Positions 20,303-64,000 of a stretch of 64,000 nt of DNA are shown here, in pieces (positions within the stretch are counted from its first letter, which is position 1; each line of letters begins with the position of its first letter). The DNA lies in contig NW_026570311.1 in NCBI RefSeq assembly GCF_019649055.1, positions 540,020-604,019 of the forward strand, given 5' to 3'. Position numbers and translations under genes: made by a program. The notes beneath the pieces were generated by a model, which saw only the letters and a program-made list of their open reading frames with translations, searched no databases and was not told the DNA's origin. Origin of the DNA: Paramacrobiotus metropolitanus (taxonomy: Eukaryota > Tardigrada > Eutardigrada > Parachela > Macrobiotidae).

Positions 20303-22836
20303 ATGGACCGCGATAACGCCGTGTACGTTCAGGGCCGCGATGAGCGTATGCGATACGGGCGTGTGGTAGACGTGGCAGAGGATGGCCTCTTCATCGACCT
20401 GCTCTGCCGCAACCGCCGACGTGAATACGCGCCGTTCGGCAGCGTCTTCTTCCCCGATCTGACGAGCTCCCAGGATCTCGTCCGTCTGTATACTCTACAA
20501 CGATCCGGTGTCCCGCTGGAGGTTCTGGTGCCGGAGACACCTTCCGGTCCGTGGATTTGGCACCCGGGCAAAATACGCTACGGAGGACAATATCCAGACG
20601 GTGGCGGGGCCGTTGTCCAGTGGACGAGCCCGGACAGCGGCGAGCGGTGTACCGATTTCGTCCCTGTCCAACGCCTGCGTCCCGTTATGGATGACGTCTA
20701 CACTAATGCATACTCCAGCCAATGCGTTCATCCAGGCACGTTTATCAAGCGCAGTGTGGACCTGGGCAGGAAGTATCGCTTGTTGTCTGCTGAAGAAGCC
20801 GAGGCGCTCATCAAGCGGCTGAATAGTTACGACCTATTTCTGCTTTCGCCGGTTTACATTGCTGACATTGTGGACGGCAAGTTGCATTACATTTGCCAGC
20901 TCAGTTATAATGAAAGCCTTATGTCCAGAACGGAACTGTCGGTAAGAAAGAGCTCGGATTCCGGCGGTAGATGTTCTGTTTTGTATACCGTCTGGCAGGT
21001 GCCCTTGTGGTTGCGTTTGCCGCGATAGATAATGAACGGTGTCTATCGCCGTCCCCGGATTTACACTCCGGCAAAGCCGTCCGCGCCACAATGCACAGTC
21101 TGGCAATACCGTCCGAGTGGAGTGAAATTCCAAATATCGAAGAGTTAGAATAATACTTGGCGGCAAAAATTATGTCGGGCGTTTTTTTGGGCCGGCGGAT
21201 GGTTTTGCCGGTTACGAACGCTCATAAGCCAGACGGTAGACTATGCTGTACTAGCAATGTGTTGCATGGTTTTCAGAAATCCGTTAACTACTTCAATAAG
21301 CAGCTGCTCAAAATGGTCCATGATCCCCCGGACACGACAACCCCGGCAATTGAAATGATCGCGTTACCAGCCGAATGCCAGCCGGCAACTTCGTCCAAAG
21401 ACGTTAATTCGGTAAGAACGAGTTCTGGTTTTGCGGTCGCCGGCAGATGTTATGCTTGGTTTTCTTGGTTTTGTAGTATTGGTGCCTTGTACGGTTTCAG
21501 GAAAGCGGGAACCGCTTCTATAACAAGTTGCTCAGATCGTTTAGGCGCCCTTCTGTAAGAAAGAAGCCCGAGGTAACGGATGACGGTATGACGATGCCCT
21601 TACCGGCCGAATTGTGGCAGGAGGTCTTTTCCCACTTGGACACCGTGACACAGACGAAGGTGCGTGCGGTGTGCGTCTTGTGGAGCCAGATCCTGGATGC
21701 GCCAGACCTGCGTTCTACGATCACCGTCCGCGATGATTATGACAAGAATGGCAGATTCGGCCATTTTCCCTCATTGGCGTCGATTTATAAGTGCTTACGC
21801 CCCGGCACGGACCGTCTTGCCATAACCCACCACCTTGACGGGGAGTGGATGAGTATGGACTACGCGATGATGTTTGCAGACATGATGCAGTTCATCGCTG
21901 CGCACCGCCGCGGCATCCACCTGCGTTCGGTGTATCTACAGCGCGTCAAACTGGACTTCGTGCTGGACAGCAGTGTCGATCACAGTCTCGTGGCCGAATG
22001 CGCCCTGCATCAGGCGGTGGAGCGCGCGTACTACTGGCTGCAGAATTTCACTACCAAATACCGCGGTTGGTGTTGCGATACGATCCACCAAGACGACTGC
22101 GATGCTGGCCTGCGAGTTTTATACCGATCCGCCGCGGGGATTTAAAGTAAAGTTTGAAATATAGAATTCCCAGCGCGCGCTTACCGCGCAATGATAAGGA
22201 CGGCTGCGCGTTGTGGGAGGCGTTGGAGAGTGCCTTACCGAAGCCGCGCAAGGAGGAACTGAACGCGCTAGGGAAATGGTTGGTAATGAGACGGGATTCG
22301 GATGCACAGTGCCACCTGAAGAAAGCCGTTTGCAAGGTAAACATGGCATTTAATTTAGGGAAGTGTGCTGAATTTGAAATGCAGAGTTTTATTTTACGCA
22401 TGAAACTCCGACCGGAAATGCGCCCACAAACGATTTTTACACCAGTGTAGACAAATCAGTTGGCAACAGAATGTCAAAAATAAGTATTTTTATTGCAAAA
22501 AAGTGTTTGGGGTTGTACATGTACACGAATTTGGCACAATGTACCGGTACACTTACCTTAAACCTTTCTATTTTAACTGCCAGTAAATTTAAATTTTTGT
22601 TTGTTTACCAGTTTGACGCTGTATGAATACACCGAGCTGATTACTTTATTTGGCAGATACTGTGTGCAGTACAATCGTTTGATCCGCGCCCGTCGTCACA
22701 CTACAGCGATAGAAAGTGGTGCGTGGACGGCCTGGGAAGCTTTAGGGTACAACTGAAAAAATTGTCGCGGATTTCTTTGCACTTCCTCGTGCAGTTACAC
22801 AAGCAGACGACGGAGGGAGGAAAGCGGCTTTTGTGA
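20303..22836 (+). pseudogene. FMRP-N-like/F-box family, copy 1 (frameshifted near C-terminus)
   Basis: Exons by comparison with copy 2: 20303-20941 (Agenet 1, Agenet 2 and KH0-like segment), 21277-21411, 21501-22336 (F-box at about 21590-21700, reading PLPAELWQEVFSHLDTVTQT) and 22657-22836. The first three-quarters is open and well conserved. In exon 3, near 22103, about five bases are missing relative to copy 2, so the frame ends in VLYRSAAGI; about 60 bp later a one-base gain leaves the exon out of frame with exon 4, although exon 4 itself is open (FDPRPSSHYSDRKWCVDGL). It could still make a truncated protein that keeps the F-box. The two indels could also be assembly errors, which read depth would settle. 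Confidence 0.7.
22510..22565. repeat. Solo end of the 925-2876 repeat family
   Basis: In reverse complement this reads GGTACATTGTGCCAAATTCG, close to the TIR of the TTAA element at 925. It lies in the last intron of F-box copy 1. Confidence 0.35.
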
Positions 22837-23878
22837 GAGCCTGATCCATTTTGCTACGTACTCGCTTTCCGGATTGTGTGTCCGGAGGCACGGAATTCTG
22901 CACGTTGTTCCACTTCCACAAGATAAAAACTCCTCTAAAAACTGATTAAGGGATAACCATGGTGGCTATGCCTGTACCAACCACGTGTTAGGACGATAGT
23001 GTTGTGCGGAATCTGTATCATACTTCCTGTATGTAGAGTATACCAGTAAATACCGCCATGTGTCTGTATATAGGTACACAACCATTACAGTACAGTATGG
23101 TAGATCCGCGAACTTGATGCACTGTACCAACTTATTTCGAAAATTCTGATTCCGGGTTTTGATAGCCTTTAGGCAGATATACATCTCAACGTTAGCACTA
23201 CGCTGCGGTTGCTCATGTGCATTACCAATTACTTGTTGCACATCCAAATACACAATACAGTATGGTTACTTCGGAGTATGGTATACAAATATTCTCCTCG
23301 CATATGCATGTGTATAGAAGAAAGGATCATAATATTTATTTGTACCCGGTCAAGTTCTACTGTAATCAGATAAACAAAACCTAGCATCTTTAGCAACAGA
23401 ACGGCGCTCCATTTCCCCTAGCACATTGAGCACATTGAGCACAATGTAAAACCTAGTACATTGAGCAACATAGCTTCTCCTCATTTCCCCTGTTTTGTGC
23501 CCAACGACGTCAACCCTGCCCAGCGGAATGAACCGTGTAAACCTGATATATATCAGCTAACTACGTAAATTCCGATTCCGGGTTTAATAGGCCTTGGGCG
23601 GATATATATCTCAAATTTAGTGATTATTGATTACCTTTAACGCTGCTGTAGCTCTACGTTGACAACAAGTTGTGTGTTACCCGTACAGATATGTTTACAA
23701 CGGGGTTTAAACTGCACTAAAAAGTATTCTTCGAGCATGTGCAACTGTCACAATATTTATTGGTAGCCGAGTCAACTCTAATCAGACAAACGAAATTCGA
23801 ACCTAGCATCTTCAGTACAAGAACCGCTCTCCAATTCCGCCATTTTGTACCTAAACGTCATCAACGTTGCCCCGTGAA
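22837..23878. other. Spacer between F-box copies 1 and 2
   Basis: Contains short direct repeats (ACATTGAGCACA near 23420-23470; GGCGGATATATATCTCAA near 23595, echoed near 23175). There is no gene. The conserved 5' flank of the family (exon-proximal CATTTTGT...AACGTCATCAACG) begins at about 23830. Confidence 0.4.
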
Positions 23879-25921
23879 ATGGACCGCGATAACGCCGTGT
23901 ACGTTCGGGGCAGCGATCAACGGATGCGGTATGGGCGTGTGGTAGACGTGGCAGATAACGGACTCATCATCGATCTGCTCTGTCGCAACCACCGACGTGA
24001 ATACGCGCCATTCAGCAGCGTCTTTCTTCCCCATCTAACCAGCTCCAAAGATCTGACCTGTTTGTATACTCTGCAGCAATCCGCCCCGCAACATTTGTTC
24101 ACTCTGTACCCGCTGGAGGTCCTCGTGCCCGAGACGCCCTCCGGTCCGTGGATCTGGCTGCCGGGAAAAATAAGCTGCCAGGGACCATGGGATAAGGCTG
24201 GAGGAGCCATTGTCCGATGGCGGAGTCCGGACAGCGGCGCGCTGTGCAGCGATTTCATCCCCGCCCAACGCCTTCGTTCCGTTCCGGATGCCAACGTTCC
24301 AGCCGTCCAGCAGGGCTCATTTATTAAGCGCAGCGTGGATCTAGGCAAGAAATATCGCTCACTGACCACCGAAGAGTCTGGGGCGCTTGTCAAACGGCTG
24401 AATAGTTACAGTCTGTGCCTCCTTTCCCCAGTTTTCATGGTTGAACTGGTGGATGGCAAGTTGCATTACATTTACAAGCTTGGTAATGCAGAAAGGAGTA
24501 TTTCACCCAGGAAGGTTTTGTCGGTAAGGGATGTTCGGCTTTGTACAACGTAAAGTTTCCAACAGTATTTCTAGTAAATCTGGGGTACGGTTTCCAGAAA
24601 TTTGTTATCCCATTCCATAAGCAGTTGCTCAAAATCGTTAAATATCCTCTTACTACTCTGGTTAACGACAACGGCAAGACATTGGCGTTACCGGCCCAAC
24701 ATCTGGTCGGTCATGCAGAAAGGTCAACCGCATCGGATGGCGGTACTTCGGTAAGCACGGGTTCCGATTTCGCCCACTGATGTTCTGCTGAATATGAAGT
24801 TCGCTATAGTACTGGCGTGTGGTACGGTTTTCAGGAAAGGGATGACCGTTTCCATAAAAAGTTTTTCCGGTTGTTCAGGCGTTCAGCTGAAAAAAGTAAG
24901 CCTGAGGCGAAGGAAATCGGTGTGACGATGCCGTTACCGGCCGAATTGTGGCAGGAGGTCTTCTCCCACTTGGACACCGTGACACAGACAAAGCTGCGCG
25001 TTGTTTGCGTCACGTGGAATCGGCTCCTGGATGCGCCAGCCTTGCGTTCCACGCTTGTCATCCGCGATAATTATAAGGAGGGCAGATTCGGCCATTATCC
25101 ATCCCTAGCGTCTATTTTTAAATGCTTGCTACCAGGTATAGAACGCATTGTCATAACACACCTTCAGGAAACAGAAGGAATGAGCAGGCACTATGCGCGG
25201 ATGGTTTTCGACCTGATCCAGTATGCGGTGGATCACCAGCTCGGCAACCGCCTGCGTACCGTGCATCTGCACCGCGTCAGACTGCAGTTTCTGCTTAGTT
25301 GCCGAGCCGAATGCGCCATGCATCAGTCGGCGGAACACACGTACTACTGGCTGCAGAAGTTCACTGCGAAATACCAGCGTTGGCACTGCCATACTGTCCA
25401 CCTAGTCGACTGCGTGGTGGTGTTGGACTGTGAGTTTTACACCGCTCCGCCGCGGGGATTTAAAGCGCACTCGAAGATTAATATCGGTACCTTGAGATTG
25501 CCGGGAAATGATGATTGCAGTGGTCGCGAATTCTGGGATGCGTTAGAGGCGGCACTGCCGCTACCCCATGAGCAGGAGCTGAGAAAGCTATTTCACTGGC
25601 TGACGGTGTGTCGGGATTCCAGTACACAGTTCTACTTCGAGAAAGCCGTATGCAAGGTGAAATTGATATTTATGTTTTCTTAAATCTGTCGCCAGTACAA
25701 TGTAATCCTTTCCGACTTCGATAGCACTGAACTGCTTTATGTTGCAGATACTGTGTGCAACGCAGTCATTTGATCCGCGTCCATGGTCGCATTACAGAGG
25801 GAAGCTGTGGTGCTTGGAGGGCCTGCGCGATTTGCAGTTGAAGAAGCTGTCGCGTGTAACCTTGTACTTCCTAGTTGAAGTGCAAAAACAAACGGCGGCG
25901 CGGGGACTGTGGCTGCTGTGA
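23879..25921 (+). CDS. FMRP-N-like/F-box protein, copy 2 (intact)
   Basis: Four exons (23879-24523, 24598-24750, 24835-25656, 25748-25921) are all phase 0 and give 597 residues. Residues ~3-52 resemble the first Agenet/Tudor repeat of FMRP (MRYGRVVDVADNGLIIDLL, then R..EYAPF..VF.P). Residues ~80-140 resemble the second (GPWIWLPGKI, then a V.W..PDSG stretch ending AQRLRSVPD). Residues ~148-215 resemble KH0. The F-box is at ~298-340 (MPLPAELWQEVFSHLDTVTQ), the domain that binds Skp1 in SCF ubiquitin ligases. The C-terminal ~250 residues are conserved in the family but unassigned. The family's usual upstream ATG (MPSG before MDRDN) is TTG here, so translation should start at MDRDN. Inferred role: an SCF substrate receptor whose N-terminus reads methylated or RNA-bound ligands. 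Confidence 0.75.
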
Positions 25922-27523
25922 GGGTCGGCAGACACTGCACAGTCTTGATAAGTGGCTACAATAGCACATGTGCCGCTTTGGTCAATGCTAAGCGCCGTTC
26001 GAGCGGAAATTAACCACTTACAAATAGTTATATCGTTCACTTTAATTTATATTACTGTCGTTCCACAAAGTTGTTTTGCTTTTATTTGCTATCAGTGACT
26101 CTATTAACTGATTTGGAGCCACAAGATGCAATTTATGTACAGGCCGTGTACCCGGGTACACTTGCTAAGGCTTCGCTAAACAGACGAAAAATAATGAACG
26201 ACAGATATCCATGTCGTTTGTCGAGATTGAGATTGATAGTATACATTTGCCTAAGATAGCCTTTACTCATTATTCATAATACTAATCCCAAAAACACGTT
26301 GCCGACGCATTATGAGGTGGTCATGACTTATTTAAATGTGATTCAGCAAACTCAGGACACAAATAAAAAATTAACAACATATTTTTTTTAAACAGCAAGC
26401 GCAGTATTTAAAGATCCATAAACCGATCTGGAACTGGCACGTAGTTTTTCTGACACGCTACTGACCAGCAATTACACCATTCTGCGTCACATGTGAATGG
26501 TTTGATGCGAAACAGATGTTTACCAAAACCAACACTGATCGTTTGCGATACTGATCGTTTTACTCTATAATCTTTCAAATCGCAACGTTTTCTTACTTAA
26601 AGCTAGAACTACTGACTTAATGCAGTTGCTTAATGTTTCCTTGGCCAGCATTCTCCTAACCGTGCATTCACAAAATAGATTCTGATATTATGTCGTACAC
26701 TGTGATATTTGTGTATGACATATTTTGGCTTTCTTGCCACATCACTTAAACATAAGAATAAAAAAATTATGGAGATTGTCTGTTGTTACACGATTAAATC
26801 AATTTTATATACGATGATGCTGTGTGGGACTTCATGTCGTATCGTGGACAATGTTGCAGTTAAATTAAATTAATAAGGAGCTTAAACAAATAATACGAGT
26901 ATTTTGCAAAATTCGACTCTTACTGTATCGTTTAATACTGGATTAGTATTCGTAGTAGATGAAAGCAGCTGATGTACTGCATCACGGCCCCTAGGTGTAA
27001 TGGTTTGTCAAATAATATGAACTACTCCTTTTGCAGAAGTTCCTCGATTTTCACATTCAGGCCTCCTAGGTGCACCGGCAGACGCTCTTGCAGCGCGCAA
27101 ATTGCATTTAAACACCGGTTCACCGTATTAAGCTGACGTAAAGTGACGTTTGAATAACAAGCTGCATGTTAAGTAGTGAATTTATTTGTTTCGTTGTCCC
27201 ATGTGCTTAGAAAGCAGTAACCGGAAATGGATGACACTTTGATCTGACGAATTGAGAGATTGCGACTGATATGAATGATATCACACTAACTTCGTCGTTA
27301 TTTTGGGTTCTTATTAATACGAAGTACCGTAGTCTACGTTCAATGGGCTGAATTGTTGGAACGTCAAATTGTACGAGTAATCGGAGCGTTACACGTCAAC
27401 TTTTGTACTAAATTATAAGCATTCCCAATCGGTGTGTTAAAATTATTTCGTTAGGCCGTTGAATTAAATGACAGAAGCGAAACTTTTTTATCAGTTTCAC
27501 TTAACAACACCTGTAGAACATTC
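25922..27523. other. Intergenic, nothing recognised
   Basis: AT-rich spacer between F-box copy 2 and the kinase. No repeat or gene is recognised. Confidence 0.45.
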
Positions 27524-29207
27524 ATGGCTGACCAGGAGGCGTTCAACGCGGAGGAATTTCGCACAATGTGGGAATGCCGGTACACGATCGTTCGTCATAT
27601 CGGGAATGGCACCTTCGGCCATGTCTACGAAGTAACGCTGACAAGCGATGATGGCAGTGAACGAACTGCGGCACTAAAGGTGACTAATCTCAAGAAACAC
27701 CAGTTTGCGAAGGAGTCCGCCAGAGACAAAATGCGCGAGCTGTTTGCAAAGTTGATGCAACTAAGTCATAAGAACATAGTTGTCTATCATCAGATCACCG
27801 TAGAGTCTGGATTATCCGGAGAGTTCATCACGGTGAACCTCCTGATGGATCTTTATAAAGGTAATCGAGAAAAAGTGAGGTTTATTAGTACGGTTTGATA
27901 GTACGGTTTAATAGTATGGTTTAAAAGTACGGTAAAAAACAGTACGGTTTAAAAGCGTCCCTTCGTTTGTAGGCGGAGACTTGACTTATCGTCTGAAGCA
28001 ACTGCTAGAAAAAACTCAGCTTCGTCAGAGTATTCCTGACAACAGTTCCGTCGCTTGGCTGTCATCCGATGTGGCAAAGATTACCGATTATGCCCAGCAG
28101 ATCGCCGACGGCCTTACGTATTTACACGGCAACAACATTATCCACGGCGATCTCAAACCCGGGAACATCTTCATCCATGTGACTCAAGACGGCAGCGAGA
28201 CACGTGATGTCCTGGTCATCGGGGACCTGGACGATTTCGTCCAGATCGCCGACACCGCTTTCTGTCTCGATGACACCAAGATCGACGAGATGACGCACGC
28301 CCGCGGCACTTACCGCTACATGTCGCCGGAAATGTACCTCAAATTAATACATAACCTCCTCGTCCATCCGGGACCGGGGACGGACATCTGGAGTGTGGGT
28401 TGTATTATGGCGGAAATGGTGCACTGTATTATGGGTCGCGGGGAGATGTGGCTGCGCCAGGTTGACGCGCCGCACCAGGTGAAGCAGGTTGAGAGTACCG
28501 TGGAGGGGGAGGAGTTCGCGCTGATGGTCTCCGCTGGGTATGTGCCTGTCGTAGCGGAGGGGGCACCAGCGGGCATGGCGGAATGTATCGGCCGCTGTTT
28601 GTGCTATAATAGCGCGGAGAGAACCAGCGCGGCGCAATTGCGGCAAGAACTGCACCACCCGGTCAGCGAACCGGGAGTTGTAACACCGACAACCTCAGGC
28701 TGTAAGGAGATGGGCGTTTACTTCTGTAAGCTGATGGGATTTTTGTTGTGTATTGCCGTGATTACCGTTTTTATGGATTTGTTGTATGGAGACTATGATG
28801 GGGTTCCCGATGCTTTGCCGGAAGAGGGAGAGTATGGACTTTATCCCCCATACGAAGAAACGGATTACGGGTGTGCGCCTGCTGGATGCAACGTGGAAAT
28901 TGTCACCCCAAACATCAGCGAACTGAGCCCTGGTTTGAACAACACGGATCGCGATCAGCCGGAGACGGGTCCCGGTCGTTCACGTGCTCGTATCTCCGTC
29001 GACAACTTTCCGCGGGATGATCATAAGAAAGTCCGGAATGAGCGGCGCGACGGGTTGCTTGAGAGGGACCAGCTGAAAGAGATGGCGGCGGAACGCATAA
29101 ATCAGCAGCGTGCCCCGGCACGAGGAAGGGTACCAGCTGCCGGCGCTGCACGGCCTTCCGCATCGCGGACGGCTGTGCGTGCTCGTGGCCGCTTGTTTCG
29201 TGGTTGA
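27524..29207 (+). CDS. Protein kinase with C-terminal membrane segment
   Basis: Two exons (27524-27860 and 27973-29207) are joined in phase 1 and give 523 residues. The kinase domain covers about residues 20-345: glycine loop IGNGTFGHVYE (~26), catalytic Lys ~52 in AALKV, catalytic loop IIHGDLKPGNIF (~170; HRD has become HGD), metal-binding motif GDLDDF (DFG has become DLD, ~197), activation-segment end GTYRYMSPEMY, and TDIWSVGCIMAEM. Lys, both Asp and Asn are kept, so activity is plausible, but loss of the HRD arginine and DFG glycine suggests regulation unlike that of ordinary RD kinases. After the kinase come one hydrophobic segment (~360-382, YFCKLMGFLLCIAVITVF) and an acidic then Arg/Ala-rich tail of ~140 residues. 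A kinase domain before a single helix with no signal peptide suggests a tail-side anchor with the kinase in the cytosol. Closest by feel to STE/MAP3K or NEK-type kinases; the family is not certain. Confidence 0.8.
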
Positions 29208-31136: not shown

Positions 31137-31143
31137 TATAAAA
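31137..31143 (+). promoter_or_regulatory. TATA box upstream of Ly6 gene
   Basis: TATAAAA lies 115 bp before the Ly6 start codon, which allows a start site near 31167 and a 5' UTR of about 90 bp. Prediction from sequence and spacing only. Confidence 0.4.
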
Positions 31144-31257
31144 TGTCATGCTTTTGCGGCCTGCCTGTACAATAATCATTCGCAAACCTGTTTTGACCTA
31201 TTTATTACACAAGAGAATTTGTCGTTAAGCAAAGAATACCGCTAAAAATATCCCGAA

Positions 31258-32504: not shown

Positions 32505-33442
32505 GCGATGCATTTTCCCCAACGAAATGGCGGGTCACCTCCTACACTGGAAAACGCAAAACGAGAAATCACGATGTGGCCCAAATTTTTTTTTATTTTG
32601 CCAATAATTGAACAGACAGCCGGGGAAAGACATCATCACTTTGGCTCCCTGGCGCGAAAACAAGAAGGCAAATCACGTGTACGCAAGGCAAGCAGAGGCA
32701 AATCACGTGTACCCATCTGCACTTCCAAGCAGTGCATCATAATATGTGAACCATACAGCTGCATCCAGGCTGATCCAGCGAAGCTCTAAGATTTTCCAGG
32801 TTGAACCAGCGAAACCGACTCCGCCTACGTTCTGAAAAATCCGGTGCTGATTTCACGCAAAGGATGGCGGAAAGCGATCAAATACACGGCTTGACGGATA
32901 CAGCGACTGAAAAACCAGAAGATCGACAGAATACAGGAACCGGATGTTTGTCGTCCACGTCAGCATTGCTCTTTTCGTTAAGTACTTTCACTCCGCACTA
33001 AGGGCTGTGTAGCGCCAAGCCGCGTGATCTTCCGAGAAGCCGGCAAAGATAAAAAGTTTCCTGCACTCACACTCTCAGAGTTTGGTAACGTCATCCCGTA
33101 ATGCACCGAGAAAAAAAACCGGGCATAACGGCACATACCAGAGTTCTTGGTACCGGCAAATTAAACAACTGAAGTGCCGGACACCACTGTTGCATTTGAT
33201 GTGGGTTTTCCTGATCTGTTCCAGATGAGCATCTCTGCTCTCAATCTGTAGGCTGCATTGCTGTTGCACTTTTAGACATATCAGCTGCATTATGTAGCTG
33301 CCGCAACCTTTTTGTTGTGCGTACCTGTACCTGCGACATAACCATAGCGCTTCCGCTTTTTTATAACAAGGACTAATAAGCAAAAAACCACAACTGCTGC
33401 CACTTTTGCATTGATGTTTAGTAACTGCTTGCTTTCGGAATA

Positions 33443-34738
33443 ATGGCCACTTATCCCAATCGCAGCTTTAACCAAACCAGTTTTACTGAAGACTCTGCTA
33501 ATCTTACCGAAGTCGTCGATGAATCGTACACAGACTATTACTATTTCAACAGCTGGATTTTCAGTGAGAATCTCGACGTCGTTCTCTGCTGTTTTTGTCT
33601 GACGCTGAATCCGCCCATCATCGCCCTCTTCATCCGGCTTCCCCATCTGCGCAGTTGTCTCGCCGTGTACGTGACCTTTCTGGCCGGCTGTAACATTCTG
33701 CAGGGCATCAGCTATCTCCTGGTGGTTTATCTGTCGTTCTTCCTCCAGAATATCAGCGATGACTGGGATTACTGTGTATTTTATGTTTATTTTCGCGAAG
33801 TGCTGCTGGCAATGCCGCTGCAGATGCACGCGCTGATCGCCTTGTCGCGCTTATGGGCCCTCAGTTTCCCGGCCGTATACGAGCGTCTCCACACGCCGGC
33901 GCTGGCTTGGATATTGTCTCTGGCGACGGCCGCGGCCACCAATCTCATTTATCTTCCCTTTATTCTCTGGGATCGCTTCTTCTCGCTCGAAGAATCCTCT
34001 GCTTGCGGCCGGAATATCATTATCTTTGGCAATGAGACAGTGACTGCTTTTTGGGCGGCACTGCAGATCATGGTGCACAATGTGCCCATGGTTTTCATCC
34101 TTGTCAGCTACCCACCACTGTTCTGGCTGTATCGGAGGGAACAGCGCCGCAAGGAGAAGCTCATCGAGAAGCAGGCGGAGTTGCTGAACTGTTATTCGGT
34201 CAATTTGAGCCGGCGTGCATTCATAGATGCGATATATTTTCCGAAAGAGCAACAGGTAACGCTGCACTATGGCATTGTTGTTGGGGTCAGTCACGGCCAC
34301 TAACTTGTTGAGCTTTGTATAAATAGGATGGATATACTAAAACATCTGTTTTAACTCGGCAAAATCCGTCGAGAAACGGTGTCTCTAAAGTGTAAGGAAC
34401 GAGACTTAAGCATGGCACACTTGATTCGCTCGTTGTGCATTTTTCAGGTACAGACTGTACAGCTGGTAGAGAAGAAACCGTTTTTCCGGATTCGTCCGTT
34501 CATGACGCTGACTGCGCTGACACTGAGCACCGTTATCTGCTCGACGCCAATGTTGGTCGTCTACGATATGTTTTTGACTGGTTCAATGTTGGTCAATGGG
34601 TTCGAGTATCGGATTGCCTGCTTGTTGATGCTCTGTCAGCCCATTCTGGATCCGGTGTTTTTCGCGCTGAGCATACATTCCGTGCGGCATACAATTGTTG
34701 TCGCAGTGGTCCGAACATGGAATTGGCTGCGGTCATAA
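33443..34738 (+). CDS. Rhodopsin-like 7TM receptor, block A copy (intact)
   Basis: Two phase-0 exons (33443-34255 and 34448-34738) give 367 residues. The N-terminus has three sequons (NRS, NQT, NLT) and an acidic, Tyr-rich stretch. Seven hydrophobic segments follow. The post-helix-3 motif is SRLWALSFP in place of DRY, and helix 7 has CQPILDPVFFALSI, a DPxxF form of NPxxY. Helix 6 is FMTLTALTLSTVICSTPMLV. A basic cytoplasmic loop (REQRRKEKLIEK) spans the intron. The nearly identical gene at 47391 is broken by a transposon, so this may be the only working copy of the pair. The gene at 39035-41961 (NRIWAVTFP, TLDPIY) belongs to the same broad receptor group. The ligand is unknown. Confidence 0.85.
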
Positions 34739-35920: not shown

Positions 35921-35929
35921 ACTATCAAA

Positions 35930-37657: not shown

Positions 37658-37822
37658 ATGGATCGCGACAACGCCGTGGACGTTCGGGGCAGCGATCAGC
37701 GGATGCGGTACGGACGCGTGGTAGACGTGGCGGAAGATGGCCTCTTCGTCGATCTCCTCTGTCCCGAGAGCTCTCTCTGTCCCAGGTCTCGTCCCAGTGA
37801 GAGAATGTCCAAGTTAGGACAT
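37658..37822 (+). pseudogene. F-box family copy 3, truncated after Agenet 1 start
   Basis: It opens MDRDNAVDVRGSDQRMRYGR and matches the family through GLFVDLLCP. At about 37764 family sequence ends abruptly and an unrelated 18-residue tail (ESSLCPRSRPSERMSKLGH) runs to a stop. Everything after (Agenet 2, KH0-like, F-box) is missing. This breakpoint is also the right edge of duplication block A. Confidence 0.8.
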
Positions 37823-38237: not shown

Positions 38238-38239
38238 TA

Positions 38240-38406: not shown

Positions 38407-38439
38407 TATACACTATACACTGCTGTATTAAGATTGAAA

Positions 38440-38665: not shown

Positions 38666-39647
38666 ATCGCATTCCAGTGAATCCTGACAGTTCAGCCCTG
38701 TATTCCTCATGTACCACGTTAGTTTCTTTGGCTCGTTTTCATTTACTAGGTTGCATTCCTTACGCGGTTATATATTTGTAAAACTGATACGTGTGAAAAA
38801 AAATTGTGCATCTGTAATTGTGAACAGCGTGAATCTGTACAAGTGTATCCATACAAGCATTACTGCGATGTTTTTCCGATGCCGTTACGATGCTTTTATG
38901 ATTTTGCTGCATTTCCATCGATTACCTAATCATTTTTCATACTAGGTAGAACCTCTACGCGGAGTCTTTGAATTACTCTGTACTTATTACGTCATGATGT
39001 TATGGCAAGGTGCACTGCATTCAGATTTTAAGTGTTAATTCTGTGAAGCTGTGCAACGAAGCATCCCTCGGAGTGTCGTCTGGATATCTTCCAAACCGGC
39101 GGTAATATAGATTGGATCCAGTGTCGCTTGCAGGAGCATCATGGTAGCACCAATCTGGTTGAAAACCGTGTTGCTGTATCTGTATAGTAAACCGAGCTTT
39201 AAATAAACCGTATTAGGCAGCCAGCAGATACCTGCCGTGATGGTAAGTATGGTGAGAACTTTGTAGCCGCCCGATCGCCGGCGGACGGTTTGGTTGCCGC
39301 CGGCCGCTGCAGATGGATTCACTAAGGCAAGGTCATTTTCTCTTTGCGCTGCTCTGACTTGCCTTCGCCGTCTTCGCTTCAGCAAAATATACGGAAAACC
39401 AAAGAAAATTGCAACTTGTGGCAATGTGTAAAACCAGAATTCCGTAAATGTTAGCAACTGCCACTGTGTGCGGCTTTGACTGGAGTTCACTAAACAGTAA
39501 GGAATATCCAGAAGGAAACGGTAATACATCGCATCGCGAATCAGTTCCGGCAGCAGGAGAGCGTTAATGTATATCCAAGTGGCCAGGCAGATGGCGAAAG
39601 CCACCGCCTTCGTGTGGTGGCTTCGGTAGCTGACCGGAAAGGTTACG

Positions 39648-41575: not shown

Positions 41576-41961
41576 AAGGTTACGGCCCAAATGCGGTTGA
41601 CGGTGATGAGCATGTGGCTGTGCGTAATCGCAGAGCTGATGACGTATTCCATATACACATAGTAAGTACAGGCGGCGTACCCGAACGGCCATCTATCGAA
41701 CAAGGTGATCGCGACGTCCAGCGGTCCAACTGCTAGTAAACGCAACAAGTTCGCCAGTATCAGGTTGATGAGATAGATGTTGAACGGTGTGTAACTCGAA
41801 TTCGCCCTTAGAAACGCTAGCAAAACTATGCAATTTGTTATGCCCCCAGCTGCAGTAATGATCAGAATCCAGACTGGAAAGGCGCTCCAGTTTAGTGCAG
41901 CTTCCGAAATTTTGAATGTTGGCATGACTGAAATGTTCGCTGCGGGCTCGGTTCTGTTCAT

Positions 41962-44789: not shown

Positions 44790-45162
44790 CTCCTAATGGA
44801 GAAACCAGCAAACTCTTCTCATTACTCGCAATGGATGGACCATATTCAGTCCGCTATTCTTCACAGCGTGCCACGCGTAATTCTGGCCCACCGTCATTCG
44901 CCGCACCAATTCATGCCACTGCTGTTTACTCGGCATCGGCAGCGCCGCCTCCAGCACATCCCACAACGCGCAACTTATATCATCGCTTGGCTGCAGTCGC
45001 TGTCGAGCTGCTCCGATTCTGACCACAAGGCGTGTCCACGTGAGAAAAGACCGCTTGCCACAATTCTACCGGTAAATACGCCATGCCCACATCATTGTCA
45101 GTAGGAGACGTGATGATTGATCATGCTGAAGAGCGCGTTACGGAAAAAAGCACAGGTTCGCT
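44790..45162 (-). pseudogene. F-box family remnant on the opposite strand
   Basis: An acceptor matching the family (ACGGTCTGCAG) at about 45162 leads into FRNALFS, a stop, then an F-box start (LPVELWQAVFSHVDT) at about 45085-45040. An internal deletion then joins straight to the family's C-terminal region (SCALWDVLEAALPMPS, about 44965-44910). It has several stops and frame changes and no N-terminal module. It is the only copy on the minus strand. Confidence 0.65.
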
Positions 45163-46444: not shown

Positions 46445-48639
46445 GGTCGAAGAATTTCCGCCAACGAAATAGCAAGTCACCAATTACGTTCTATCCATCA
46501 AGGAGAACGCTCAAGAGAAGAAGTCCCGACTACGGCTCCCGAAACTTGTTTATTTGCCACATAAATCAACAGAAAGCATGGAAAGGACGTCATCACTTAG
46601 CCGACGCTGCGTTAAAACAGAAAACAAAACAGGCGGATCGCCCATACACAACTGCGCTTTTGCCTTGTAGGTAACACATTAACCGTACAGCTGCTTCCCG
46701 ACAAATCAAAGATTTTTCAGGCTAAGCTAGGGAAACCGGCTCCGCCTAGGTTCTACTAAATCCGGTGCTGACTCCATGCAAAGGATAGTGGAAAGCGATC
46801 AAATACAGCGCCTGATGGATACAGCGAGTGAAAAACCAGGAGATCATCAGCCGACATGAACAGGATGTTTGTCGTCCACGTCAGCAATGCTCTTCTCGTT
46901 AAGTACTTTCAGCCAACAGACTAAGCACTGAGACCTGTGTCGAGTCAAGCCGCGTGATCTCCCGAGAAGCCGGCAAAGATAAACAGTTTGCTGCACTCAG
47001 AGTTTGGTAACGTCATCCCGTAATGCACCGAGAAAGAAACGTGGCATGACGGCACAAACCAGAGTTCTTGCTATCGATAAATTAAACAACTGAAGTGCTG
47101 GGATCCAATGTTTCATTTGACGTGGGTTTTCCTGATCCATTTCCGATAAGCATCTCTGCTCGAAATCTTTAAGCTGCATTAGTGCTTCACCCTGAATCTG
47201 TATGCTGCATTACTGTTGCAGTTTTGGATAGATCAGCTGCATTATGTGGCTGCCGTAATATTTTTGTTGTGCATATCCGTGCCTGCGCCGTAACCACAAA
47301 ATAACCCTACCGCTTTTAATAAGAAAGACTAATAAGCAAAACCACTGCCACTTTGGCGTTAATGTTCGGTCCCTGCTTGCTTTCGGAATAATGGCTACTT
47401 ATGCCAATAGCAGCTTTAACCAAACAAATTCTACTGAAGATTCTGCTAATCTTACCGAAATCCTCGATGAACTGTACACAGACTATTCCTATTTCCACAG
47501 CTGGATTTTCAATGAAAATCTCGACGTCGTTCTCTGCTGTTTGTGTTTGACGCTGAACCCGCCCATCATCGCCGTCTTCGTCCGGTTTCCCCATCTGCGC
47601 AGTTGTCTCGGCGTGTACGTGACCTTTCTGGCCGGCTGTAACATCCTGCAGGCCATCAGCTATCTTCTGGTGGTTTACCTGTCGTTCTTCCTCCAGAATA
47701 TCAGCGAAGACCGGGATTACTGTGCGTTTTATGTATACTTTCAACAAGTGCTGCTCGCAATGCCGCTGCAGATGCACGCGCTGATCGCCTTGTCCCGTTT
47801 ATGGGCCCTCAGTTTCCCGGGTTCATACAAGCGCCTCCACACACCGATGCTGACCTGGATATTGTCCCTGGCGATCGCGGCAGCCACTCATCTTATGGTC
47901 CTTCCCTTTATTTTGTGGGATCGCTTCTTCTCGCTTAAGGAATCCGGTGCTTGCGATCGGGGTAGCTTTGGCAATGAAACGATGACATATTATTGGGAAA
48001 TACTGCAGTTCATGGTGCACAATGTGCCCATGGTGTTCGTCCTTGTCAGCTACCCACTCTTACTCTGGCTGTATCGCAAGAAACAGCGCCGCAAGGAGAT
48101 GCTCATCCAGAAGCAAGCGGAATTACTGAACTGTTATTCGGTCAACCTGAGCCGACGTGCATTTATAGATGCAGTATATTTTCCCAAAGAGGAGCCACAG
48201 GTAATGGTGCACAATGCTGCATTTGTTAGGGTCCATCACGGTCACTAACTTGCTGAACTTTATAAAAACAGAATGAACTAAAGATAAAAAATTTGTTTTT
48301 AGTCAGCAAAACCCGTCAAGTAACGCTTTTTTCGATTGTGTCTCCAATTTGCAAGCAACGAGATTTGCGTACCGGCACACTTGGTTCATTCTTATATCAT
48401 TTTTTCAGGTACAGATGGTAGAGAAGAAACCGCTTTTTCGAATTCGCCCGTTCATGACGCTGACTGTGCTGACACTGAGCACTGGCCGAGCACGGCCAGG
48501 GTCAAAAAGAGGGAGGAATTTTGAGAGGGAGGAATTTCTGCGTGGTCAAAAAGAGGGAGGAATTTTTGAAACGAGGAACGGAGGAATTTTGATATGGTCA
48601 AAAAGAGGGAGGAAATTTTTCGAAGTTCAAATGAAGTAC

Positions 48640-56014: not shown

Positions 56015-57419
56015 ATGCCCAGCGGAATGGACCGCGATAACGCCGTGGATGTTCGTGGCAGCGATCAACGGACGCGTGGTGGACGTGGCGCAAGATGGCC
56101 TCTTAGTCGACCTCCTCTGTCCCAACCGGCGACGCGAGTTTGTGCCATTCGGCAGGGTCTTCTTCCCACGTCCAGCGAGCTCAGACGATTTCGCCCGTTT
56201 CGATGCCAGAGGGCAGCCCAACGCCTCGGTGGAAATTCTAGTACTGGAGACGCCATCAGGTCCGTGGATTTGGTTGCCGGGTGTAATGAACTGTGGGGAA
56301 GACGACGTGACCTGCGCAACAGACGGAGGAGTCGTTGTCCGTTGGAAGAGTCCGCCAAGCGGCGTGATGTGCACCGACTACGTCCCCATCCTTCGCGTTC
56401 GCCTGGTTCAAGACTCCGACAACAACGCCGCACTCAGTGCTTGTGTCCGTCCAGGCACATTCGTCAAGGGCAATGTCAACCTGGGCAAGGAATTTCACTC
56501 GCTGTCCACTGGGGAAGCCGAGGCCCTCATCAAGAAAGTGAACGCTAGCAAACCTTTCATTCTGTCCGACGTTTTCGTGGCTGCCCTCGTGAAGGGCAAG
56601 TTAGAATACATCTACCAAAGAACTCCTTCATCCAAAGAACTCTTTGCGGTAAGACAGTGTCCAAATTACGACAGCAGATGTGGCGCCTGACCGCAGAACT
56701 AACGTGTTGTACGGTTGACAGCTCGCCTTCACCCGCTTCCGCAGGAAGTTGTTCCGAATAATCACGTCTTCTGCTGACGAGGATGCCGGCATGGCGAGGA
56801 CGTTGCCGTGGAATTGTGGCAGGAGGTGTTCGCCCACTTGGACACGGTGACACAGACGAAGCTGCGCGTTGTGTGCGTCACGTGGAACCGCATCCTGGAT
56901 GCGCCAGCACGCCGTTCCATACTCGTCATCAGCGATGATTATGACAAGATCGGCGAATCCCGCTATTTTCCATATTTGGCGGCGGTGTATAACTGCCTTC
57001 GACCCGGCACGGAGCACGTTGCCATAATGCGCCAAAACGGGAGAGAAGTGGACCGGGAATGGCTCTCGAAGGTGTGCAACATGGTGCGATATGTGGCAGA
57101 CCAGCAAACCGGAATCCGTTTGCGCACACTTTTTGTGCACCCTCTTAGCCCTTGCGTACACGGGGAGTTCTGCTTTTTGGTTGATGCCGAGCGTGTCGTT
57201 TATTCGCCGGGAATAAACGGTGGTTACTGCTGGCTGAAAAAGTTTTGGAGCGCAAGCGGTGAAGTGGGATACCGTGGCATGCCATTCTGTCCGCCACCCT
57301 TTTTGTTATGGGAAAAAACGGCGCCTGGATACGAAAACTCCGATTTAATTTACGAGGTTTTCAGAACGTACTCGATCAAATACTCCAGACCGGTCTACTT
57401 TGATGGCCCCACTTAGATA
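56015..57419 (+). pseudogene. F-box family copy 4 (two frameshifts, altered N-terminus)
   Basis: Starts MPSGMDRDNAVDVRGSDQR at 56015, but about 10 bp (the codons for MRYG) are deleted near 56072. After that the family frame (GRVVDVAQDGLLVDLLCPNR) is only reached from a different upstream frame; an ATG at 56048 would give MFVAAINGRVVDV and rescue it. Exon 1 ends at 56648 and the F-box exon starts at 56722 (LAFTRFRRKLFRII), with no middle exon. A one-base loss near 56806 (TTGCCGTGGAATTG) shifts the F-box out of frame with its exon start. From there WQEVFAHLDTVTQTK runs open to 57419, with a C-terminus that diverges from the family after CWLKKF. Likely dead, though each half is still open. Confidence 0.7.
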
Positions 57420-58213: not shown

Positions 58214-59990
58214 ATGCCCAGCGGAATGGACCGCGATAACGCCGTGGATGTGCTGGGCAGCGATCAGCGAATGCGGCACGGACTCGTGGTGGACGTGGCA
58301 AAAGATGGTCTCTTCGTCGATCTGCTCTATCCCAACCGACGACGCGAGTTTGGACCATTCGGGCAGCGTCTTCTTTCCATAACCGATGAGCCCCAGCGAT
58401 TTCGCCCGTTTATCTTCCCAGCAATGGTCCAGCGTGTCGGTAGAGATACTGCTACCGGAGACGCCATTGGGTCCGTGGATTTTGCTGCCCGCTGAAATGA
58501 ATTGTGGGGAAGACGCGGTGCCGTGCGCAGTGGACAAAGGGGCCTTGTCGACTGGAAGAGTCCGCAAAGCGGCGTGATGTGCACCGACTACGTCCCCATC
58601 CAGCGCATTCGTCCACTTCCTGACCTCGACAATAATACCGCACTCTGCGCTTGTGTCCGTCCCGGCACAGTTTTCAAGGGAACCATGAACCTGGGCAAGA
58701 GATTTCGCTCGCTGTCCACTGCAGAAGCCGAGGCGCTCATCAAGCGACTGAACAGCTGCCGCCTGTCTCTTCTATCCGAAGTTTTTCTCGTTGCCCGAGT
58801 GAATGGGAATTTGGAGTACATTAAATTTTACCAGCGGGCACAAGGAACAACTTTGTCCACAAAAGCGTTTTCGGTAAGAAAGGCCTCGAATTACCACGTT
58901 ACTCGTTGCGATTTGTCAAGAACTAGTACTGTATGTGGTACGATCTGCAGCGCACCTCCGCCATTTTCCGTGACGCAGTGAGCATGATCATGTCTACCAC
59001 CTATGATGCGGATATGGCGCAGATGTTACCTGTGGAATTGCGGCAGGAGGTCTTTTCTCATTTGGACACCGTGACGCTGACGAAGATGCGGGCTGTGTGC
59101 ATCACGTGGAACCGGATCCCCGAAGGGCCAGCGCTGTGTTCTACGATCGTTATCCGCGGCATTTGTGACAAGAACGGCGGAATCGACCAGTTTCTTTCAC
59201 TGGCAGCGATTTACAATGCCTTACGACCGAACATGAAGTACATCGTCATAACGCATAAAGGAGAATCAATGGGCCCGGCTTCCGCTATGATGGTGTGCAA
59301 CATGATACCATACGTGGCCGATGAGCAGGCCGGCATCCGACTGCGCACACTTCACCTGCACCGCCTCTGTCTGGAGTCGTCCGCTCATTGCATGAGAGAC
59401 ATCACCGCTGCAACCGAATCTGCCATACAACAGCGCGCAAGGCTCCGTTGTTTTCCTTGGCTGCTGGATTTTTTTGTCAAATGCTCTAGTGGGATACCGT
59501 GTAATACCATTTACTTAACGAAATGCGTTGCTGCCTTTAAAGGCCCTGACTCCAACTCTGATTCTGACCACCCAAACTCTGACTCTGACTACTCAAAGTC
59601 TGACTCTGACCGCTCAAAGTCTGACTGTGCTCAAACCTAAGAAACTGAGGTTTCTTAGGTTTCTAGGTTTCTCAGGTTTCTTAGGTTTCTTAGTTTTCTT
59701 AGGTTTCTTAGGTTATTCTTAGGTTATTCAGTCAGAGTCAGAGTTTGGACAGTCAGAGTCAGACTTTGAGTAGTCAGAGTTTGAGCGGTCAGAGTCTGAG
59801 TCAGAGCTTGAGCGCGGGCCTGCTTTAAACTGCCAACTTGATCCGTCTGCGCCGTTATCGTTTAACCGTACTCGGATTCGTTGGAGATCAACATCAGAAC
59901 TCCGCGACTGCAGCTAAGCGGTGGTATCGGTTGCGCGTTGTGGGATACGTTGTCGGTGGCGGAGGTTACTTTAAACAACTTTCCGTTTTC
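58214..59990 (+). pseudogene. F-box family copy 5 (stop, two frameshifts, foldback insertion)
   Basis: Starts MPSGMDRDNAVDVLGSDQRM. Near 58360 an extra G (TTCGGGCAGCG against TTCGGCAGCG) shifts the frame; the correct frame then meets a TAA at about 58381, and near 58543 one base is lost. Exon 1 ends at 58873. The F-box exon starts at 58951 (RTSAIFRDAV) and reads MLPVELRQEVFSHLDTVT through NTIYLTKCVAAFK, where a foldback element enters at 59542. Family sequence resumes after 59820 (RLQLSGGIGCALWDTL). The final exon was not found. Confidence 0.8.
59542..59820. mobile_element. Foldback element inside F-box copy 5
   Basis: 279 bp. The right end GGCCCGCGCTCAAGCTCTGA (inverted) equals the ends of the 40939 element; the left end keeps GGCCC then TCTGACT units. 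The arms are TCTGACTCTGACTACTCAAAG repeats and the centre is a palindromic AGGTTTCTTAGG run. Flanks GCCTTTAAA and TGCTTTAAA give an imperfect 9 bp duplication. Confidence 0.7.
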
Positions 59991-60410: not shown

Positions 60411-61693
60411 CCAAGGAAGAGGTTTCGGTAAGACAGAGTCCGAACTCCGGGTTACGACATCAGATGTTTTGCTTTGCTACATATTTAGTATTTTTTAATG
60501 CCTGCAGGAAGCCTTCACCCGCTTCCTCCGTAAGAACTTGTTCAGAATCATCATGTCCCCTCCTGACGAGCAGGAAACGGATGCCGGCATGGCGAGGATG
60601 TTAGCGGCCGAATTGTGGCAGGAAGTCTTTTCCCACCTGGACACCGTGACGCAGACGAAGCTGCGTGTTGTGCGCGCCGCGTGGAACCGGATCCTGGATG
60701 CACCAGCGTTGCGTTCCACGATTGTCATCCGCGATGATTATGACGAGAACGGCCGTTTTCTATCTTTGGCGGCGGTCTACAATTGCCTGCGTCCCGGCAC
60801 GCAGCGCGTTGTCTTAACGCCCGAGATTAAGGGAGGACGGGACATGGAGTACGTCAGGAAGGTGTGCAACATGGTGCGGTATGTGGCTGCTCAGCAAACC
60901 GGAATCCGACTGCGGACACTGCTTCTGCACCGTGTCCTCTTCGTGTCTTCCGTCGACTGTGCTACCGACTCTGCCCGACAGCAGTCGGAGAAATACGGTT
61001 GTTTTTATTGGCTGCACGATTTTCTGGCCAAATGCCGCGATGGGATAACGTGTGGCACCCTTCAGTTAGCCAGCTGCGTTGCTGTTTTGCTTTGTGAACT
61101 GGATTCGTCATCGGTCAAGGATTCTCCAGTTCGGGTGGAAATCGAAATCGGCACTGCGCGACTGCAGCTCAGTGAGAATCTGGACTGCGCGCTGTGGGAT
61201 GCGTTGGAGTCGGCGCTGCCGATGCCGAGTGAAGCGGAGCTGCTTACATTAGTCCAGAAAGTGGGTGGAAATTCAGTTGGGCATTCGGGCGGAGATGACA
61301 GGGAGGCAGTCAGACCTCCAGTGGCAGTGTGGGATTTGGCTGAGAAGAGAACCGTTTGCGAGGTTAGAACGACAACCATAATTTTCTTTCCAAGAATGAC
61401 GTTTTTTCTTGCGCTTTAAACATTAAACAGTACACTGAAACTTACCTTGCAGATGCTGTGTGTTTACACAGTCGTTCGATCCACCACGACCCTCATCGCA
61501 TTACCGCGGGAGGAAGTGGTGTGTCGGCGGTCTGCGAGATCTGCAATGGGAGAAATTATCGCGCATCACCTTGCACTTCCTCGTTGACTTACAGCGACGC
61601 TTTGAGGGTCTTTCCCATTTTATGGGCGTATCAGTGGATCGTCTAAAAACGCTTCGTGATCGGCGTTTTGAGCGATTCGGGCGGAATTCGTAA
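60411..61693 (+). CDS. F-box family copy 6, lacking the FMRP-N-like module
   Basis: Only the last few codons of exon 1 (SKEEVS, to 60427, then GTAAGACA) remain; they abut 5' flank sequence, so the Agenet/KH0-like module has been deleted. The F-box exon 60508-61362 is open for 285 codons: EAFTRFLRKNLFRIIM, F-box MLAAELWQEVFSHLDTVTQT, then the full C-terminal region (IEIGTARLQLSENLDCALWD). The last exon has one extra base at its usual start, but a nearby acceptor (TTTACACAG, exon from 61472) restores the frame to FDPPRPSSHYRGRKWCVGGL and a longer tail ending at 61693. An in-frame ATG at 60553 (MSPPDEQET) could start an F-box-only protein. The coding status is uncertain: it may be a pseudogene or a shortened F-box gene. 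Confidence 0.5.
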
Positions 61694-62727: not shown

Positions 62728-64000
62728 ATGCCCAGCGGACTGGACAGCGATAGCGCCGTGGACGTTCTGTGCAGCGATCAACGGTTGCGGTACGGCCGCG
62801 TGGTGGACGTGGCGGAAGAGGGCCTCTTCGTCGACCTGCTCTGCCCCAACCGGCGACGCGAGTTTGCACCATTCGGCAGCGTCTTCTTTCCCCGTCCAAC
62901 GAGCTCGAAGCATTTCGACCGCTTCGATACCAATCAGTCCAGCGCCTCGGTGGAAATTCTGGTACCGGAGTCGCCATCGGGTCCGTGGATCTGGTTGCCG
63001 GGTGAAATAAGCTGTAGGGTAAACGGTGGGCCGCGCGCACTGGACGGAGGAGCCGTTGTCAGTTGGAAGAGACCGGACAGTGGCATGCTGTGCACCGACT
63101 ACCTTCCCGTCCAGCGTATTCATCCAGTTCCGGATTCCAATAACAACGCAGCACTCCACCGTTGTGCCCGTCCAGGCTCATTTGTCAAAGGCAGTGTCAA
63201 CCTGGGCAAGGAATTTCGCTCGCTGTCCAAGGGAGAAGCCGAGGCGCTCATCAGGCGACTGAATCGCTACCGACTGTTCAACCTGCCCGATGTTTTCTTC
63301 GTTGCCTTCATGAATGACCGGCTAGAATATATTTACCGGCTGCCAGAAGGAACCACTTTCTCTAAAAACCAGTTGGTAAGACTGGATTCGAGTAACGATA
63401 GCAGAGGTTGCGCTTTGCTACAAAGGGAAGAACTGATGTGTTTTACGGTCTGCAGGAAGCCCGCGCCCGCCTCCGGTATAAGTTGTTCAGCAAGATCACA
63501 TCTCCCACCGAAGAGGAAACAGCGAATGCCGAAATGGCGAGGATGCTACCCGTCGTATTGTGGCAGGAGGTCTTTGGTTCCTTGGACACCGTGACGCAGA
63601 CGAAACTGCGTGCTGTGTGCACCACGTGGAATCGGATTCTGGAGACGCCAGCGCTGCGTTCCACGATTATCGTCCGCGGAAATTACGATAACCAGGGCCC
63701 ATTCGGCCATTATCCATCCTTAGCGGCGATTAACCATTTCCTACGCTCCGGCACGCAGCGCGTTGCTGTAGCCCGGGAGTTTGCAGGAGAACGGATGAGC
63801 CTTTTCTACGTCGAGATGGTGCGCGACATGATACGCTATGTGGCGGATCAGCAAACCGGTATCCGCCTGAGTACACTTTTCCTGCACGGCGTCCGTCTTG
63901 AATCTCGCGTTGGCCGTGGTGATTACAGCGGCAGTATTGCCGGATGTGTACTGCATCAGCTTAAGAAATACCCGGGTTACTATTGGCTGCACGATACCCT
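62728..64000 (+). CDS. FMRP-N-like/F-box protein, copy 7 (open, runs off the window)
   Basis: Exon 1 (62728-63375, 216 codons) starts MPSGLDSDSAVDVLCSDQRL. It carries Agenet 1 (GRVVDVAEEGLFVDLLCPNR, ending FAPFGSVFFP), Agenet 2 (ILVPESPSGPWIWLPGEI, VVSWKRPDSGMLCTDY, VQRIHPVPD) and the KH0-like segment (FVKGSVNLGKEFRSLSKGEA). Exon 2 starts at 63456 (EARARLRYKLFSKI) and has the F-box (MLPVVLWQEVFGSLDTVTQT) and the following family region (IRYVADQQTGIRL); it is open to the window end. The middle exon found in copies 1 and 2 is absent. With copy 2 it is the best-preserved member here. Upstream ATG: the family start MPSG is present. The expected role is as for copy 2. Confidence 0.75.

Follow-up and report, generated by a model that had tools for sequence, protein, structure and literature searches.

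Vertebrates carry three FMR1-family paralogues, and nematodes and plants have large F-box expansions made up of very many clustered copies. The N-terminal region of the FMRP, FXR1 and FXR2 proteins (4QVZ, 4QW2, 4OVA, 3KUF, 3H8Z and 2BKD) consists of two Tudor repeats followed by the start of a KH0 domain, and the F-box receptors of SCF ubiquitin ligases (FBXL, FBXW and FBXO) have an F-box that fits its Pfam model, with a further region behind it. The two classes of protein have been tied together in trans: in the available part of one report, SCF-Fbxo4 acts on Fxr1, the fragile X protein being the substrate (PMC5688124). Here we describe a family from a tardigrade, an animal studied for its survival of drying, that has all of these arrangements in common, namely the order of Tudor repeats and KH0 start, the F-box with its further region, the clustering in very many copies and the tie between an F-box ligase and the fragile X family. 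The members of this very large family probably begin with an N-terminal module of FMRP that has been duplicated and has diverged (termed the head); across a phase-0 intron follow an F-box, some 200 further residues and a C-terminal exon, and the proteins are predicted to be SCF receptors with an FMRP-derived docking head. A literature search found an FMRP-like head joined to an F-box in none of the searchable papers.

Copies in the window and in the genome

The window, that is, the whole stretch of DNA analysed, comprises 64,000 nt of Paramacrobiotus metropolitanus (assembly GCF_019649055.1, NW_026570311.1:540,020-604,019, forward strand), and its 3' edge is the end of the contig. It holds five copies with head and F-box, an F-box copy lacking a head, and two fragments; of the five, three are broken, another runs off the contig end, and only copy 2 is both complete and open. 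Copy 2, on the plus strand like all features given here except one fragment, begins with a head of 215 aa (23879..24523), followed by a 274-aa exon with the F-box from about 24928 and the region after it (24835..25656; phase 0 at both ends) and by a conserved C-terminal exon of 57 aa plus stop (25748..25921); the three exons, joined in phase 0, form a reading frame whose only stop is its final codon. Copy 1 has a head of 213 aa with the tandem Tudor repeats and KH0 start (20303..20941; donor GTAAG at 20942, phase 0), an exon with the F-box (match from 21594) and following region that is disrupted, falling into three reading frames after about 22100 (21501..22351), and the matched part of the conserved C-terminal exon (22654..22797).

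The other copies comprise a head (56027..56657) whose frame shifts near 56070 and an F-box exon with an unmatched tail (56811..57245); a head with an in-frame TGA (58226..58885) and a further F-box exon with an unmatched tail (59026..59535); an F-box exon with no head upstream (60601..61257) and the matched part of its C-terminal exon (61466..61582); and a head (62740..63375; donor GTAAG at 63376, phase 0) with an F-box exon that the contig end truncates (63456..63998; match from 63546). The two fragments are a piece of exon 1 with 35 residues of the first Tudor (37658..37762) and, on the minus strand, 48 residues of the post-F-box region at 40% identity (44880..45020). An Rfam search of the window gave no match.

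A tandem family joining an FMRP-like head to an F-box, as put forward in the original prediction, is confirmed by the head profiles, F-box matches, linkage and exon phase described below. Its number of eight loci is right for the window only when the count takes in the headless copy and both fragments, and falls far short for the genome, in which three merged search listings (E limits of 0.01 for one and 0.001 for the two others) gave at least 416 head places besides FMR1; heads on their own and several pieces of a single head may be among them.

Homology of the head to the FMRP N-terminus

Scanned singly against Pfam, four window heads matched no family, and profiles were therefore needed. 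A profile of 53 window-type heads (54 passed the coverage filter and L062 was dropped as degenerate) was compared with all PDB chains; six of its ten matches, ranked first, were six distinct FMRP, FXR1 and FXR2 sequences (E values of 2.8e-7 to 6.5e-4), the next match being uL24m at 0.05, and Tudor proteins other than FMRP/FXR were not found down to an E value of 10. The same six sequences came first (1.2e-11 to 1e-8, next 0.19) with a profile of 15 divergent heads, taken from 17 with L087 and L112 left out, which shares no row with the 53-head profile, though it was picked with its help. Tudor1, Tudor2 and the opening strand and helix of KH0 are matched one after the other. Comparison of the head with FMRP by hhalign gave 97.1% and 98.3%, and L108, a single F-box-bearing head, matched human FMRP at an E value of 3e-10 and the genome's own FMR1 at 1e-7.

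In a Pfam scan of the 53 heads the commonest match was a weak one to the S1 barrel (6/53, best E value 0.12), against 3/53 for Tudor_FRX1 (best 0.00099) and 2/53 for Agenet (best 0.056), as might be expected if the head were a generic pair of Tudor or royal-family barrels merely resembling FMRP. This reading is, in our judgement, extremely improbable, since, with two profiles and a single sequence alike, the six FMRP/FXR sequences head the matches from the entire PDB, among which there is no other Tudor protein down to an E value of 10, and the match continues through both repeats into KH0.

The KH0 of the heads is, to judge from the residues and models compared, incomplete or diverged, and partly detected. 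Phe126, in the KH0-like part, is kept in 62 of 68 heads; across the genome, the FMRP KH0 model KH_9 matches the true FMR1 only, and it is absent from the families matched by the 53 window-type heads or by ten divergent heads. The Agenet Pfam model had no match above the cut-off in the genome. FMR1 is present in one copy as far as the KH0 model shows, and has two KH_1 stretches; Pfam gave no KH_1 match in any of the 53 heads, nor in the 48 F-box exons or the 26 C-terminal exons. Sequence comparison thus shows homology between the head and the N-terminus of FMRP over both Tudor/Agenet repeats and the first KH0 strand and helix. The FMRP-like head originally proposed, together with the profile search suggested for checking it, holds up for both repeats in profile and single-sequence matches and in part for KH0, of which the first strand and helix are matched and KH_9 is not. 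AlphaFold2 gave a mean pLDDT of 39 for three window heads and 51 for six window F-box exons, values too low for a structural claim or for independent support, and a Foldseek search with the predicted F-box exon structure returned nothing at an E value of 0.001 or below.

The head had also been proposed to read methylated lysine. The available part of PMC4259889 describes the FMRP mutants T102A and Y103L as losing nucleosome binding and Glu66 as stabilising the Agenet domains. At the corresponding columns, Thr102 is kept in 8 of 68 heads and Tyr103 in 4 of 68, with Cys at position 103 in 43 of 68; Glu66 is conserved in 52 of the 68 heads and Trp79 in 66. Only Thr102 and Tyr103 were used for the test, because PMC2970552, in the part of its text available, does not number the aromatic-cage residues. 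As the genome's own FMR1 is likewise without Thr102 and Tyr103, the test bears on methyl-lysine and not on ancestry. Methyl-lysine reading of the FMRP type was rejected on these counts, and we do not think that the head, with the residues that it carries, reads methyl-lysine the way FMRP does. It also seems unlikely that the head would be a substrate receptor that presents FMRP-type ligands (methylated lysine, RNA-granule proteins) for ubiquitination through the F-box. The FMRP homology across both Tudor repeats, the lowest dN/dS within the head in these same repeats (see below) and the retention of Glu66 and Trp79 would suit such a receptor, but the nucleosome-binding residues are mostly not retained, and strong constraint across many copies would be more in keeping with one partner common to the copies than with a reader specific to each.

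Joining of the head to the F-box exon

Among the 48 F-box exons that passed the coverage filter, 47 match PF00646 at an E value of 1 or below (best 1.4e-8), in agreement with the clear F-box originally reported. In single scans of four window exons, the matches at 21594, 24928 and 59026 were above the PF00646 cut-off, and the headless exon at 60601 matched nothing. The post-F-box region, about 200 residues long, and the C-terminal exon matched no known family, and Pfam recognised neither LRR nor WD40 repeats, nor any other known domain, after the F-box in the 48 members; weak, non-significant PDB matches were to FBXL3 (E value 0.24, F-box) and FBXW8 (0.43, F-box plus some 60 residues past it). 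The protein had been thought to end about 250 residues past the F-box start, which proved wrong, as a third, strongly conserved C-terminal exon follows the F-box exon.

A same-strand F-box exon lies within 3.5 kb downstream of 100 of the 150 head matches listed (median gap 270 bases), compared with 21 for an upstream F-box exon, a control inflated by tandem arrays, and 17 for the other strand; the count drew on 150 head places, 150 F-box places and 32 Pfam places hand-picked from 150 listed. When F-box loci were sampled at every eighth rank, 12 of 19 had a head upstream against none in the shuffled control, with L101 (E value 4e-5 over 27 positions) not counted; one more of the 19, L106, has by coordinates a head that starts outside the stretch examined. 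Seven of the 82 family loci have head and F-box within a single open frame, one of the seven with only part of the head. Donor candidates of the form GT[AG]AG were found in 20 of 39 head/F-box pairs, with none in the other 19 within the 135 bases scanned, and 20 of 21 candidates near the exon 1 end are in phase 0, bearing out the phase-0 joining originally proposed. In the four of six paralogue pairs that were scorable, 13 of 17 gaps in the between-exon stretch were not multiples of three, whereas all exon gaps were; base identity in that stretch ranged from 0.63 to 0.83, lower than in exon 1 for three pairs and higher for one (L050/L060, 0.81 versus 0.71). Exons 1 and 2 are also inherited together: across 37 loci the Mantel rho was 0.68, a value reached in none of 2000 permutations.

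The phase-0 donors, the confinement of frame-breaking gaps to the stretch between the exons, the single open frames and the correlated divergence of both exons together make it very unlikely that head and F-box belong to two adjacent genes that happen to duplicate together. That possibility draws on the existence of headless F-box exons (60601 in the window; L089 and L091) and on the 7 of 11 loci with a Tudor_FRX1 match that show no F-box match in the stretch examined (L066, with an F-box match beside its head, is counted in the F-box group). The evidence makes the head the predicted first exon of the F-box gene.

Selection and predicted function

Median dN/dS was 0.34 for heads (42 pairs), 0.47 for F-box exons (9 pairs) and 0.20 for C-terminal exons (297 of 319 pairs with a defined ratio, from 26 of 56 matches), with no pair above 1 in any of the three, the pairs not being independent of each other. 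Resolved by region in five pairs, the ratio was 0.15 for Tudor1, 0.26 for Tudor2, 0.49 for the KH0-like part, 0.39 for the F-box and 0.39-0.50 after the F-box, so that the first Tudor has the lowest value among the head and F-box-exon regions compared. These ratios show purifying selection on all three exons. Together with the fit of the F-box to its Pfam model in 47 of 48 exons, such selection argues against an F-box with no part in ubiquitination, whether in a structural or decoy RNP family or in a cluster formed by unequal crossing-over with many dead copies. We consider these readings improbable, even though some window copies are broken, stop codons lie inside some family matches elsewhere in the genome and, among the matches listed, family places are heavily clustered on few contigs.

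In the explanation that we prefer, an FMRP N-terminal module of two Tudor/Agenet repeats and a KH0-like start would have been duplicated, diverged and joined to an F-box; a single fusion event is consistent with the tree, though not proved by it. The predicted F-box would recruit SKP1-CUL1, which would make the family a set of SCF ubiquitin-ligase receptors; the genome contains four SKP1 loci. The head may serve as a common docking module that associates either with itself or with an RNP protein of the FMR1 type, and the less constrained post-F-box region and KH0-like part might carry the copy-specific choice of substrate. Possible, but doubtful, is the wider picture in which the FMRP N-terminus would be the constant arm of several hundred ubiquitin-ligase receptors of an innate-immunity-like or stress-granule-clearing kind, docking on RNP particles via the head and selecting targets via the variable post-F-box region. 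With an FMRP module copied very many times, and its copies compared under selection, the function of the FMRP N-terminus becomes open to study through paralogue variation.

Compared with FMRP, FXR1 and FXR2, the family has no KH1/KH2 match in the exons scanned, a diverged KH0, mostly other residues in place of Thr102 and Tyr103, and an F-box downstream. It differs from the FBXL, FBXW and FBXO receptors in that none of the LRR, WD40 or other known domains was found after the F-box and in the N-terminal position of the FMRP-like head, an arm that would be new among the known F-box receptors. The F-box expansions of nematodes and plants are not, to our knowledge, known to carry an FMRP-derived module. 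Whereas in the SCF-Fbxo4/Fxr1 system, as described in the available part of its report, the fragile X protein is a substrate in trans (PMC5688124), the present family is predicted to fuse the FMRP N-terminus to the F-box itself.

Gene copies in the window and across the genome

Contig C91 is 604 kb long, and the window is its terminal 64 kb. Searches by tblastn with the FMRP-like first exon (the head) and the F-box exon, combined with translation of the joints, located five copies that have both head and F-box, a sixth F-box copy that lacks the head, and two fragments; the eight loci of the original prediction are reached only when the headless copy and both fragments are counted. Only the second copy is complete with an uninterrupted reading frame. 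The three exons it contains, placed by tblastn and translation at 23879-24523, 24835-25656 and 25748-25921, join in phase 0 and give a predicted product of 546 residues. The contig breaks off within the last copy, and the remaining three show frame shifts, an in-frame TGA or loss of the tail; because the published assembly is described as Nanopore-based and polished with Illumina reads (PMC8277472), some of these frame shifts could be sequencing errors. In the first and second copies (heads at 20303 and 23879), a degenerate second version of the F-box-exon start (K..FNKQLLK...ALPAE), recognized by eye at 21277-21411 and 24598-24750, respectively, sits between the head and the F-box exon, with a further phase-0 GTAAG after it; judged from its sequence, it may represent an intragenic duplication or an alternative exon.

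The window also contains five frames for rhodopsin-type 7TM receptors (Pfam 7tm_1 above cut-off): two at 33425-34300 and 47259-48245, which by eye are near copies, and three on the minus strand at 39038-39757, 41467-42111 and 4286-5422. A protein kinase in two frames (27455-29204; second frame, Pfam Pkinase E 1.8e-21) adjoins the F-box cluster, and a low-complexity frame at 12968-13594, rich in Gly/Tyr/Arg with GGYGGDS repeats, resembles the tail of an RNA-binding protein and had no match in Pfam.

Across the 169.8 Mb and 533 contigs of the genome searched, three merged head searches gave, among the matches listed, at least 417 separate head places on at least 107 contigs, including FMR1 and possibly some places without an F-box or representing parts of one head; eight loci is therefore too low as the extent of the family. 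Sampling every eighth of the best 150 Pfam F-box matches genome-wide (n=19) revealed a same-strand head upstream, in the sequence fetched, at 12 loci and at none in a shuffled control. Among 12 F-box loci picked for having no listed head match, two of which also belong to the 19-locus sample, the profile detected a head at eight, one only partial. The C-terminal motif WCVDG(L/F), searched as a DNA pattern, had 142 occurrences, and its reversed control had 4. Since the Paramacrobiotus assembly is reported to be incomplete by BUSCO, at 72.9% (PMC11191345), further family copies may be missing from it. Searches of titles and abstract openings in the open-licence PMC literature (tardigrade F-box, fragile X or family expansion; F-box with Agenet or Tudor; nematode F-box expansion) found no description of an FMRP-headed F-box family.

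Linkage of the head and the F-box

Among the 150 head places listed, 100 are followed on the same strand by an F-box exon no more than 3.5 kb away, and for 82 of them the distance is 140-544 bases; the controls gave 21 F-box exons upstream, a count inflated by tandem arrays, and 17 on the opposite strand. In 20 of 39 head/F-box pairs exon 1 ends at a donor candidate, and 20 of the 21 candidates lay in phase 0, in agreement with the phase 0 join proposed originally. Four of six paralogue pairs could be scored; in these every exon gap was a multiple of three, while 13 of 17 inter-exon gaps were not; base identity of the inter-exon stretch was lower than that of exon 1 in three scored pairs and higher in one. 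Head and F-box share one open frame at 7 of 82 family loci, one of which (L092) has a partial head only. Furthermore, across 37 loci the divergence of exon 1 correlates with that of exon 2 (rho 0.68, a value reached by 0 of 2000 permutations), with an identical nearest neighbour for both exons in 20 of them. Taken together, these sequence features suggest that the head and the F-box belong to a single gene.

Relationship of the head to FMRP

The true FMR1 of this genome is a 630-aa open frame on contig C5 with Tudor_FRX1, KH0 and KH domains, aligning with human FMRP over 210 residues (E 1.5e-36). Window-type heads scanned singly against Pfam gave no match. A profile of 53 such heads, three from the window and 50 from loci elsewhere, was run against every PDB chain and retrieved 10 sequences at E <= 10. 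The top six, at E 2.8e-7 to 6.5e-4, were the six distinct sequences of FMRP, FXR1 and FXR2, and the other four were ribosomal protein uL24m (E 0.05 and above). The match proceeds from Tudor1 through Tudor2 and reaches the opening strand and helix of KH0. A second profile of 15 divergent heads, sharing no row with the first though chosen with its help, placed the same six FMRP/FXR sequences on top (E 1.2e-11 to 1e-8; next 0.19), and one divergent head (L108), used as a single query, matched human FMRP (E 3e-10) and the genome's own FMR1 (E 1e-7, 26% identity, 175 residues). Profile-profile comparison of heads with FMR1/FMRP/FXR1 gave 97.1% (E 5e-11) and 98.3% (E 2.6e-14). The predicted FMRP likeness of exon 1, including its two Agenet/Tudor repeats, is borne out by these searches; the KH0-like stretch is supported in part, as the profile match enters KH0 but the KH0 Pfam model, run over the genome, hits FMR1 alone, and KH0 is the weak point of the likeness.

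An unrooted tree of 43 heads separated F-box rows from FMR1, FMRP, FXR1 and head-only loci (branch support 95/97) with locus L066 placed among the F-box-bearing rows, where it is counted because an F-box match adjoins it; with L066 labelled head-only, the tree program counts two changes of the F-box label and three of the head-only label. The tree, which has several long branches (L066 and L069 most) and four head-only rows less than half filled, fits a single fusion of head and F-box. Seven loci (L063, L064, L065, L067, L069, L073 and L074) carry FMRP-like heads with no F-box match within the fetched stretch and lie with FMR1 in the tree, as a further set of paralogues of the FMR1 N-terminus; two of them, L063 and L064, score above the Tudor_FRX1 cut-off.

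Selection and proposed function

Median dN/dS was 0.34 for heads (42 pairs), 0.47 for F-box exons (9 pairs) and, lowest of the three, 0.20 for the C-terminal exon (297 pairs), and no pair exceeded 1 for any exon. By region, five pairs gave 0.15 for Tudor1, 0.26 for Tudor2, 0.85 for the linker after Tudor2, 0.49 for the KH0-like part, 0.39 for the F-box and 0.39-0.50 beyond it. These regional and pairwise values indicate that the compared heads are functionally constrained, the first Tudor above all. The C-terminal exon, whose consensus is LCAxQSADPRPSSHYRGKKWCVDGLxDLQLEKLSR, comes after the F-box exon and lies at 25748-25921, 22654-22797 and 61466-61582, was matched at 51 fetched loci in addition to these three window places, and returned nothing significant from PDB and Pfam.

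Nucleosome binding by FMRP is reported, from mutant data, to need Thr102 and Tyr103 (PMC4259889). Thr102 is kept in 8 of 68 heads and Tyr103 in 4 of 68, so that methyl-lysine reading, the activity originally suggested for the head, is unlikely for most of them. The usual role of F-box proteins is to bring substrates to SKP1-CUL1 ligases, and SKP1 has four loci in this genome; we favour a division of labour in which the head would serve as the docking part and the region after the F-box as the variable part.
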